NCBI RefSeq assembly: GCF_017888745.1
Contig: NZ_JAGHFM010000149.1
Location: forward strand, 1-41,807
Direction: 5' to 3'
Origin: Terrisporobacter sp.
GTDB taxonomy: Bacteria > Bacillota > Clostridia > Peptostreptococcales > Peptostreptococcaceae
Length of the DNA stretch: 41,807 nt
Numbering within the stretch: the first letter of the stretch is position 1; the number at the start of each line of letters is the position of its first letter. Position numbers and translations under genes: made by a program. The notes beneath the pieces were generated by a model that was not told the DNA's origin, searched no databases, and worked only from the letters and a program-made list of their open reading frames with translations. Positions 7,368 through 11,704 of the stretch are shown piece after piece.

Positions 7368-8813
7368 CTATACTCTTAAATCTACTTGTAAACCTATACA
7401 ATCTTTATATTCACTTATAGCTGGCTCTAGATATTCTTCCACGAATTCTACCACTTGTTCAGGAGCTCTACCAACAAAGTTAATTGGATCTAGTATAGAT
7501 AATATCTCTTCTTTATCGATCATGCTAAATGCTTCATCTTCTATTATAAGGTCTATTAAGTTATTATTTAAACCTTCATGTTTTACTCTATATGCAGCTT
7601 TCATAGATAATTCTCTTATTACTTCGTGTAACTCTTGTCTATCTCCACCTCTTTTTACAGCTTCCATAAGTATATTTTCTGTAGCCATGAATGGTAGTTC
7701 TTCATCTATATGTTTTCTTATCATATTTTCATATACAACTAAACCATCAGTTACATTTATACCTATTTCTAATATAGCATCAGCTGCCATGAATGCTTGA
7801 GGTATAGCTAATCTCTTATTAGCTGAATCATCTAAACTTCTCTCTAGCCACTGTGTAGCTTCAACTAATGCTGGAGAAATTGATTCAGATATTATGAATT
7901 TTGATAAAGATGCTATTCTTTCACTTCTCATAGGATTTCTTTTATAAGCCATAGCAGATGAACCTATTTGATTTTTTTCAAATGGCTCTTCTAATTCTTT
8001 TAAACTCTGCAATAATCTTATATCGTTTGTCATCTTATGCATACTTTGTGCTATTCCGGCAAGTACATTTAATACTTGAGAATCTAACTTTCTAGTATAA
8101 GTTTGTCCACTTACTTTATATGATTCTTTGTATCCCATCTTTTGACATACTATTTTATCTAATTCTTTTATTTTATCATTGTCACCTTCAAATAAACTAA
8201 CGAAACTTGCTTGTGTTCCTGTTGTACCTTTTACCCCTCTAAGTTTCATATTATCAAGTCTGTAATTTAAATCTTCTAAGTCTATTATTAAGTCTTGAGC
8301 CCAAAGAGTCGCTCTTTTACCTACAGTGGTTAATTGAGCTGCTTGGAAATGAGTAAATCCTAATGTTGGAACATCTTTATATTTCAAAGCAAAATCTTTT
8401 AAATTATTTATTAAATTAACAAGTTTAACTCTTATTAATTTTAAAGCTTCATTCATTTGTATAACATCTGTATTATCTCCAACATAAGCTGAAGTTGCTC
8501 CAAGATGTATTATACCTTTTGCTTTTGGGCATTGAAGTCCATATGCTTTAACATGACTCATAACATCATGTCTAACTTCTTTTTCTATTTTTTTTGCTTC
8601 TTCGAAATTTATGTCATCTATGTGAGCTTTTAATTCTTCTATTTGCTCATCACTTATATTTATTCCTAATTCTTTTTCTCCCTCTGCTAATGCAATCCAT
8701 AATTTTCTCCAAGTTGAAAATTTGAATTGTGGAGAAAATATATAACTCATATTTTTACTACAGTATCTCTCTGTTAAAGGATTTGAATATGTTGTATATT
8801 TGTTATCTATCAT
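7368..8813 (-). CDS. purB: Adenylosuccinate lyase
   Basis: GSSAMAYKRNPMRSERI signature, HLGATSAYVGDNTD, FTHFQAAQLTTVGKR. Confidence 0.95.
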   Translation of the reverse strand: MIDNKYTTYSNPLTERYCSKNMSYIFSPQFKFSTWRKLWIALAEGEKELGINISDEQIEELKAHIDDINFEEAKKIEKEVRHDVMSHVKAYGLQCPKAKGIIHLGATSAYVGDNTDVIQMNEALKLIRVKLVNLINNLKDFALKYKDVPTLGFTHFQAAQLTTVGKRATLWAQDLIIDLEDLNYRLDNMKLRGVKGTTGTQASFVSLFEGDNDKIKELDKIVCQKMGYKESYKVSGQTYTRKLDSQVLNVLAGIAQSMHKMTNDIRLLQSLKELEEPFEKNQIGSSAMAYKRNPMRSERIASLSKFIISESISPALVEATQWLERSLDDSANKRLAIPQAFMAADAILEIGINVTDGLVVYENMIRKHIDEELPFMATENILMEAVKRGGDRQELHEVIRELSMKAAYRVKHEGLNNNLIDLIIEDEAFSMIDKEEILSILDPINFVGRAPEQVVEFVEEYLEPAISEYKDCIGLQVDLRV

Positions 8814-8904
8814 CTTTGCACCATCCCTAAATCTTTTTCTATTCCAAAGAATATTATATATAATTTAACGAACAATAACAATATTTTTTATCAATTTGTT
8901 CATA

Positions 8905-9813
8905 TTATTTTTTATTTATCTTTAGATTATCTTTACCTAACATAAAATCTATACTTTCACTATCTACAAAATTTAATACATGTTTGTATCTTATAGCATA
9001 ATATTTGTCACTCCAACCAAGTTGTTTTTTTATATCTTCTTTATCTGCACCAAGCATAAGGCTTATAGCTGCATAAGAATGCCTTAAGTCTTTTGCAGAG
9101 TATTGAGATAAACCTGCCATATCAAAAGCTTTTTTTACTATCATCCTTACATTTCTATCAGTAATAGACTGACTTTTTTGTGTTGTAAAAATATAATCGT
9201 CTGTAGGTATTATTATTTCACTAAGACCAGAAAAATATCTATAACTTTCAATCAATCTGAAACAATAAGGATGTAATTTAACTACTCTTTCTTTTTTACC
9301 TTTGCCTAATCGTACATAGAAATTACTTTCTTCATCTACTATAAGATCTTTCCACTTAACTTTGACTAGTTCATTTAATAAACATCCCGTAGTTACTAAG
9401 AATATCATTATAAGACGATCCCTAGCATTCAATTTATCTAATGAGTCTACTAATTGATTTATTTCTTGTATACTCAAAACATCCTTCTTGCCTTTTTCCC
9501 TTGTTACAACAGGCTTCTCAACAGATGTAAAAGGATTAACCTCAATATATTTTTCTCTTTTCATAAATGCATAAAAACTATGTAGATAACTAAATATTTT
9601 TTCACAAGTAGACTTAGCATATTCATCGTCTATGTATTCTATAAAGTCTCTACATTCATTTTTAGTGACTTCCAATAAATTTTCTATTTTTAAAAATTCT
9701 TTGAAAGATATAATTTTACTTAGGTAATCTTTTTTTGTAGAAGGCGCCATTTTTATAGAAAATAGTTGAAATATTTCATATTCTTCTTTTGTTAATATAA
9801 ATTCTTGATCCAT
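8905..9813 (-). CDS. Tyrosine recombinase-like (XerC/D/integrase fold) protein, possibly catalytically atypical
   Basis: SAM-like N-terminal domain; GKGKKERVVKLHP, KDLRHSYAAISLMLGADKEDIKKQLGWSDKYYAIRYKHV. Start at MDQEF preceded by aaaggag. Confidence 0.85.
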   Translation of the reverse strand: MDQEFILTKEEYEIFQLFSIKMAPSTKKDYLSKIISFKEFLKIENLLEVTKNECRDFIEYIDDEYAKSTCEKIFSYLHSFYAFMKREKYIEVNPFTSVEKPVVTREKGKKDVLSIQEINQLVDSLDKLNARDRLIMIFLVTTGCLLNELVKVKWKDLIVDEESNFYVRLGKGKKERVVKLHPYCFRLIESYRYFSGLSEIIIPTDDYIFTTQKSQSITDRNVRMIVKKAFDMAGLSQYSAKDLRHSYAAISLMLGADKEDIKKQLGWSDKYYAIRYKHVLNFVDSESIDFMLGKDNLKINKK

Positions 9814-9890
9814 AATTACTCCTTTCATCTTTATTTTTATAAATTTTATAAATTAAAATTTAACTTCCTATGGTATTTTATTTTATAAAT

Positions 9891-9922
9891 TAATTAAGAA
9901 GCACATAAGTGCTTCTTAATTA
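9891..9922 (-). terminator. Intrinsic terminator of the helicase gene
   Basis: Perfect 14-bp stem taattaagaagcac-ataa-gtgcttcttaatta overlapping the stop codon. Confidence 0.75.
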
Positions 9923-11704
9923 TTCTTTTGTAGAATCAACTATTATTTTTATTAATTCACTTGAATTTTCATTAAATGTTGTTATTATAGTTAAATATTC
10001 ACTAGATCTATTTATAGCCATATATATTTTATTTAGATCTCCAACAAAGTCATTAATTTGATAATCTTGATACTCTTCATTTATAGTTTGATTATATAAC
10101 ATTTCTAACTCACAAAATACAACCGCTTTATATTCTAAGTTTTTTATAAAATACAAATTAGATATTGTTACTCCACCGTCTTTATCGTATTTAGTTAAGT
10201 TATCATCACCTTGTATAAAAGGAATATTCCCTTCACTTAAAGCTTTTTTCAATAAGTATTGGAAATATATAGTTTTTCCATTTTTAAGTCTTTTTTTATT
10301 ATACGGATATACTATAGCTATGTCACTATAATTCAATCCTTTATTACTTATTAAATATTTTATTTCCCATAATATGGCACTTATTTGATCCTCTAAGTCA
10401 TCTACTTTTATTACTTGAGCATTTATTCCTTCATTAATAATATTATTCGATTCTTTATATATATCTCTATTAATATTCTTTCTTAGATTTTTTATATATT
10501 TATTTGCATTTCTACAAAATTGATTTGAAAAATCTACAATATATTTTCCTTCTCTTAAATTATTATCCAACATAATTTTTTCATCAAAACTTATATAACT
10601 AAAGGGTTCTTTAAAAATATTTACGTTATTATAAATATTTAGACATTCACAGTAAAAAATATTAAATATATACTTCTTTTCATACAGAAAATCTTGTATA
10701 AATTCTATGTCTTTTTGTTCAAAACTTTCGCTTTCATCTATAAATATACCTTTAAAGATTTTTTTGTTTTTTATGATATTTTTCGCTTGTTTTATTAAAT
10801 TATTAAAAGTTCTTTCGTAATCTTGCTTTAACATAGCATAATCTAGTATTAAATTATATTTTTTAGCCAACTTGAATACAAAAGATGATATAGTATGAAC
10901 TTCTAAATTATTATTTTCTTTATATAGTAATTTTATAGTTTCTCTCAATTGATTACATAATTGCTTAGTATGTGTGAATATAATAAAGTTATGATGAGGG
11001 TAAATACGTGCTAATTTAATAGCTCTAGACATCATCAAAGATGTTTTACCGCTACCTGTAGGTCCTTCTATTAAAGTCTTACCATAATTAATTGAAATAG
11101 TTTTTTCTAATTGTTCATCTGTTAACATAGAAGCACTATAATTATAATCACCTTGAGAAAAAGTAATTTTTTTAAATTCTTTATTAAGATGATATTGTCC
11201 ATTAAGTTCATAATATTCAGGACATATATCTAATATATAAAGATTTAATTCAATTTCATTATTAACTTCTTTAAGATAGTTATCTAACTTATCACGATTT
11301 CCTATTATCTCTTCTAATTTATTCTTATCTATAATATTATTTTTCACAAAACTTTCAAATCCATAATAATCTTCAATCTCTACATATGGCATAATAAAAA
11401 CATAATTAAAGCTAATATTACTATGAAATTGAGCCATTTTAAACTTAAGTAGTTCATACTCTTCATTCATTACTTCAATTAGTTCTTCATCTAGGATTGA
11501 AAATATTTCTTCGCTTGTATCCATAAATTTTATAAAAAGTATTTTATTATCTTTTATATATAATAGATCTGTATTTATACCTCTAAATGGAGTTACTTTG
11601 GGTATTATATTAGTATTATCAGATATTTTTTTATAAAAAATCTTTTCTACTTCTTTTATTTTTAATGCATCTAATTGTGAGTTGATATTTATCTTTTGTC
11701 TCAA
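9920..11704 (-). CDS. SF1 (UvrD/PcrA-like) helicase-type ATPase with uncharacterised N-terminal domain
   Basis: Walker A GPTGSGKTS, motif Ia FTHTKQLCNQL, Walker B FIDESES, VTISNLYFIKNLEYKAVVF, IYMAINRSSEYLTII. Confidence 0.82.
   Translation of the reverse strand: MRQKININSQLDALKIKEVEKIFYKKISDNTNIIPKVTPFRGINTDLLYIKDNKILFIKFMDTSEEIFSILDEELIEVMNEEYELLKFKMAQFHSNISFNYVFIMPYVEIEDYYGFESFVKNNIIDKNKLEEIIGNRDKLDNYLKEVNNEIELNLYILDICPEYYELNGQYHLNKEFKKITFSQGDYNYSASMLTDEQLEKTISINYGKTLIEGPTGSGKTSLMMSRAIKLARIYPHHNFIIFTHTKQLCNQLRETIKLLYKENNNLEVHTISSFVFKLAKKYNLILDYAMLKQDYERTFNNLIKQAKNIIKNKKIFKGIFIDESESFEQKDIEFIQDFLYEKKYIFNIFYCECLNIYNNVNIFKEPFSYISFDEKIMLDNNLREGKYIVDFSNQFCRNANKYIKNLRKNINRDIYKESNNIINEGINAQVIKVDDLEDQISAILWEIKYLISNKGLNYSDIAIVYPYNKKRLKNGKTIYFQYLLKKALSEGNIPFIQGDDNLTKYDKDGGVTISNLYFIKNLEYKAVVFCELEMLYNQTINEEYQDYQINDFVGDLNKIYMAINRSSEYLTIITTFNENSSELIKIIVDSTKE

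Follow-up and report, generated by a model that had tools for sequence, protein, structure and literature searches.

What role can be played by a protein with the fold of a tyrosine recombinase, if the first arginine of the active site (Arg I) is replaced? This question is raised by a Xer-like protein encoded in the window, which denotes the whole stretch of 41,807 nucleotides that was analyzed and represents an entire contig of a Terrisporobacter-like genome. The protein is here given the working name XERX. Its start at position 9813 is preceded by a ribosome-binding site (AAAGGAG) and its closest orthologs, with 85–86% identity, are found in Terrisporobacter petrolearius and T. mayombei. The Pfam family Phage_integrase (PF00589) matches residues 113–279 with an E value of 1.4e-22, which places XERX within the tyrosine recombinase fold. 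The gene is flanked by a gene for a UvrD-like NTPase and by purB, with rny and recA located upstream. The relevant features are:

8905–9813, complementary strand: XERX, Arg-I-less Xer-like protein of the tyrosine recombinase fold, 302 amino acids
9514–9792, complementary strand: core-binding (SAM-like) domain of XERX, residues ~8–100, with a Pfam PF02899 match at residues 21–88
9352–9393, complementary strand: box I of XERX, TTGCLLNELVKVKW, residues 141–154, with Leu145 in the Arg I column
9301–9303, complementary strand: Lys171 of XERX in the catalytic lysine column, which is K, Q, N, S or T among the Peptostreptococcaceae orthologs
9145–9165, complementary strand: ITDRNVR of XERX, residues 217–223, clade-specific
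9082–9093, complementary strand: box II of XERX, KDLR, residues 241–244, with Lys241 at the His II position and Arg II kept as Arg244
9013–9021, complementary strand: LGW of XERX, residues 265–267, with tryptophan at the second histidine position as in Cre
8986–8991, complementary strand: Arg275-Tyr276 of XERX, with Tyr276 at the position of the nucleophile
9920–11704, complementary strand: SF1/UvrD-like NTPase upstream of XERX, a constant neighbor within Peptostreptococcaceae, by synteny alone
7368–8813, complementary strand: purB, downstream of XERX in most Peptostreptococcaceae loci read, by synteny alone

The absence of Arg I was confirmed by an alignment to E. coli XerD (1a0p), in which TTGCLLNELV of XERX is paired with ATGLRVSELV and Leu145 falls on Arg I. 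The codon is TTA at 9379–9381 of the complementary strand, exactly as claimed in the original prediction, which had also reported correctly that the box II histidine is a lysine (Lys241) and that the second arginine, the LGW motif and the tyrosine are intact (Arg244, Trp267 and Tyr276). Tryptophan at the second histidine position is known from Cre, for which W315 is given in Table 3 of PMC10516654. Compared with the canonical set R-K-H-R-H/W-Y, XERX thus deviates at Arg I and at the box II histidine and agrees at Arg II, His/Trp III and Tyr. The assignment of the Arg I column is secure, since in an alignment with ~30 other clostridial Xer-like proteins nearly all canonical ones carry arginine in the column of Leu145 (97%, the exception being lysine). 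A further point was missed in the original prediction: judged from the aligned sequences, the catalytic lysine column is not dependably kept either, being lysine in XERX, glutamine in the five remaining Terrisporobacter-like genomes and asparagine, serine or threonine elsewhere. A neighboring lysine might replace it.

An AlphaFold2 model of XERX, built from six sequences, reached a pLDDT of 62 and a pTM of 0.53, and its PDB match had a TM-score of about 0.25. Because of this poor quality, the model served to confirm the fold class alone. Among PDB sequences, chain 14 of 9i5v (401 amino acids), deposited as the ribosome-associated inhibitor RaiA, matches both XERX and XerD over residues 17–282, which suggests a recombinase-RaiA fusion.

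The original prediction had proposed either a decayed enzyme or one repurposed for DNA binding or architecture, and the orthologs decide against decay. XERX is present in 52 of 71 Peptostreptococcaceae genomes, chromosomal and in single copy (two copies in one genome), and the Arg I column, the conservation of which had been left to be checked, is leucine in 34 and methionine in 2 of the 36 Peptostreptococcaceae orthologs read. The box II histidine column is lysine or arginine throughout these orthologs, and Arg II, Trp and Tyr are invariant. In three pairs with dS below 0.5, dN/dS is 0.05–0.06, the other within-genus pairs being near or beyond dS saturation. Furthermore, the motif regions are conserved to 87–90% in comparison to 61–80% for the remaining protein. 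A decaying integrase left behind by a mobile element would be in line with the missing catalytic residues only. It is contradicted by open reading frames, by strong purifying selection and by single-copy orthologs in a fixed gene order, and viral contigs gave one weak match with 24% identity. Decay or a prophage remnant is therefore ruled out by dN/dS, synteny and distribution, and this reading is hardly credible.

Most loci show the order UvrD-like gene, (divergent) bacA, XERX and purB, including those in which rny and recA are found at another place. Nevertheless, XERX and its UvrD-like neighbor do not represent an obligate functional pair, because the UvrD-like gene persists after the loss of XERX and is missing from the families with the threonine-type homologs described below. 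The neighbor itself, an SF1 NTPase of ~594 amino acids for which a PDB sequence match was not found, is present in most Peptostreptococcaceae and missing from the other families examined. Within the gap between the UvrD-like gene and XERX (~9885–9920, complementary strand), a hairpin followed by a T-rich run (TTAAGAAGCACTTATGTGCTTCTTAA) resembles a terminator and is found again in most genomes of this genus. The gap between XERX and purB (~8860–8905, complementary strand) contains an imperfect inverted repeat, GAACAA...TTGTTCG, judged by eye to be possibly a PurR-type operator. A search for an operator of XERX found that the regions upstream of its orthologs from other genera fail to align.

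How far the altered active site extends was seen in order- and class-wide searches, which revealed relatives of XERX in families coded f11, f5, f6, f3, f31 and f32. In a tree calculated without the catalytic columns, XERX and these relatives are split from the canonical clostridial recombinases by a branch with 100/100 support; f32 is a single and very long-branched row in this tree. Given in the order Arg I / Lys / His II / Arg II / His III / Tyr, the signature of nearly all canonical proteins is R-K-H-R-H-Y, and that of the Peptostreptococcaceae family is L-(K,Q,N,S,T)-(K,R)-R-W-Y. Elsewhere in the clade T-(T,I)-R-R-W-Y, R-K-K-R-W-Y and K-Q-K-R-W-Y are found, as well as the deeper losses K-K-S-R-Y-L, without the tyrosine, and S-S-K-F-F-Y, without both arginines. 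The Arg I column holds leucine or methionine in Peptostreptococcaceae, threonine in f11 and f5, lysine in f3 and f31, serine in f32 and arginine in f6 alone. An ordinary arginine at this column in orthologs, which would speak against the original prediction, was seen only in two distant relatives from one genus of another family (L091 and L092). In f31 (L115 and L116) leucine replaces the nucleophilic tyrosine, and in f32 (L126:1498-2394) phenylalanine replaces Arg II, with a gene for a canonical recombinase adjoining.

Since the residue at Arg I differs by lineage, either several independent changes took place at this position or arginine was regained in f6. Normal recombination chemistry is impossible in the lineages without the tyrosine or without both arginines, and therefore a non-catalytic role appears to be the simpler view for the clade. 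This is not a proof for the lineage of the Peptostreptococcaceae, whose members keep Arg II, Trp and Tyr without variation. Indirect support for the repurposing put forward in the original prediction comes from the variety of ways in which the active site was altered inside a single conserved clade, with the tyrosine lost in one lineage, and from the solved precedent of MrpR.

MrpR (YopR), the master repressor of the B. subtilis prophage SPbeta (PDB 8A0A), has the recombinase fold, has lost Arg I and performs no recombination; it represses SPbeta genes by binding to a repeated element (PMC10516654). Both proteins consist of a core-binding and a catalytic domain, and both have lost Arg I and the box II histidine and kept the tyrosine. 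In contrast to MrpR, which is phage-borne and has a known DNA site, XERX is chromosomal and keeps Arg II and Trp. The structure 8A0A was not among the PDB profile matches of XERX at an E value of 0.01. A homology to MrpR is seen at the level of the fold, and an MrpR-like DNA binding and repression is a prediction by analogy.

The best-scoring named families are XerC and XerD (TIGR02224/TIGR02225), which share the two-domain layout and the order of motifs with XERX, whereas Arg I and His II are replaced in the latter. Here, XERX stays far below the NCBIfam cut-offs, with 122.5 vs. 329.6 bits for XerD and 118.6 vs. 335.2 bits for XerC. In Firmicutes, the Xer-like protein of the streptococcal XerD-like family NF002685 (PRK02436) is not known to act at dif. 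XERX gave no NCBIfam match to this family at an E value of 0.001.

Taken together, XERX is probably a vertically inherited, Xer-derived and recombination-deficient protein, which no longer carries out the usual chemistry of a recombinase and has been retained to bind DNA, as a site-specific regulator or an architectural factor. Mechanistically, a specific DNA would be bound by the core-binding domain together with the active-site cleft, which is preserved with Arg244, the ITDRNVR helix and Arg275-Tyr276; both domains would grip the site, and by analogy with MrpR the bound protein would act as a regulator or an architectural factor on targets that may matter to the life of a sporeformer.

The complete conservation of Arg II, Trp and Tyr argues against a non-catalytic reading, since a purely structural role would not need these residues. 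The main rival holds that XERX remains an active tyrosine recombinase whose active site was rebuilt, in which another arginine, as in IntDOT of CTnDOT, or the lysine or arginine at His II would provide the charge and Tyr276 would cleave a fixed chromosomal site. In its favor, Tyr276, Arg244 and Trp267 are invariant in Peptostreptococcaceae. In the IntCTnDOT subgroup, Arg I sits at either of two places, the second one being further downstream (PMC8138268), and Cre and Flp mutated at Arg I are able to react once the phosphate charge is neutralized (PMC4499138). A candidate for a substitute is Arg220, which is found in every leucine- and threonine-type member read and is missing from f6, where Arg I is kept. 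Together with Arg223 and Arg275 it is invariant in the leucine and threonine lineages and rare among the canonical set; Arg223 occurs in every clade member, Arg220 in these two lineages only. This pattern fits a compensation for the lost Arg I and may also be due to chance. However, Arg220 lies outside box I, the catalytic lysine column varies even inside the genus, and sister lineages have lost the tyrosine or both arginines. IntDOT, which likewise has no Arg I at the canonical position, differs as well, being an arm-binding integrase of a mobile element with a known substitute, while XERX is devoid of an arm-binding domain. An active enzyme is therefore considered unlikely, yet it is the alternative with the best claim.

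Still less probable is a non-catalytic partner in a mixed Xer complex, in which XERX would pair with another chromosomal recombinase and set the choice of site or the timing. This idea draws on the use of two recombinases for Xer recombination in most bacteria, as stated in PMC5357621. In f11, a conserved tyrosine recombinase of 181 amino acids, consisting of the catalytic domain only (L083:7837-8382, L082 and L084–L088), is encoded near XERX in all loci read, together with another integrase gene. The genome of the window has a 65% identical copy of it, which is located at L109, away from XERX. On the contrary, the two genes are not adjacent in the Peptostreptococcaceae loci read, and many genomes harbor other Xer proteins without XERX. 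Among these proteins, the vertically inherited XerD-like protein of the Peptostreptococcaceae (G000:C170:5788-6687, L103; orthologs L154–L183) has an altered active site of its own. In 30 orthologs, Arg I is lysine in 24 and arginine in 6, the box II histidine is serine or threonine and the second histidine is asparagine in all 30, and Arg II and Tyr are kept. It may be asked, then, by which recombinase the dimers of the chromosome are resolved in Peptostreptococcaceae.

A lead for the role of a DNA-binding XERX comes from its distribution, which largely coincides with that of spoIVA (PF09547). This gene is present in 54 of the 71 genomes; XERX was found in 52 of these 54 and in none of the 17 genomes without spoIVA (Fisher's test, 2e-14, with kinship ignored). 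The exceptions are two genomes of genus g11, which have spoIVA and no XERX. According to a tree of the UvrD-like neighbor, XERX was lost separately in g6, in g23 and in one genome of g11. In the latter, the UvrD-like gene and purB are still 1.3 kb apart, and in two asporogenous lineages the neighbor persists without XERX. In the genera g4, g16 and g19, XERX, spoIVA and the UvrD-like neighbor are all missing. Since two lineages are certain, in addition to g4, g16 and g19, the number of independent co-losses of XERX and spoIVA is small. Genome size as the cause is ruled out, as XERX is present in genomes of 1.5–2.0 Mb and missing from some of 3.1–3.3 Mb. The XerD-like protein described above persists in the asporogenous genera g23, g4, g16 and g19. 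Outside the family, spoIVA was found in 10 of 10 genomes with a threonine-type homolog, and in f11 the gene lies near spo0A in all three loci examined, with spoIVB confirmed in two. The f6 genomes, which keep Arg I, are missing spoIVA. The link to sporulation rests on few independent events with g11 as the one exception, and the association is a lead and not a proof of a function in sporulation. Nevertheless, the role of XERX is probably to be sought in sporeformer biology.

On a larger scale, we tentatively propose an old, vertically inherited clade of clostridial pseudo-recombinases, in which the active site decayed lineage by lineage and the fold was kept. Within this scenario, XERX of the Peptostreptococcaceae would be a dedicated DNA-binding factor of sporeformers, lost with each loss of sporulation, and its scope would include Clostridioides, if the genus coded g17 is Clostridioides.

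XERX is real and conserved, and with its clear precedent in kind it is not a new category of protein. It would represent a chromosomal, vertically inherited case fixed across a bacterial family, which is at present scored merely as a weak match to XerC/XerD. If the link to sporulation is true, XERX would be a DNA-binding protein, so far unstudied, of gut clostridia that form spores.
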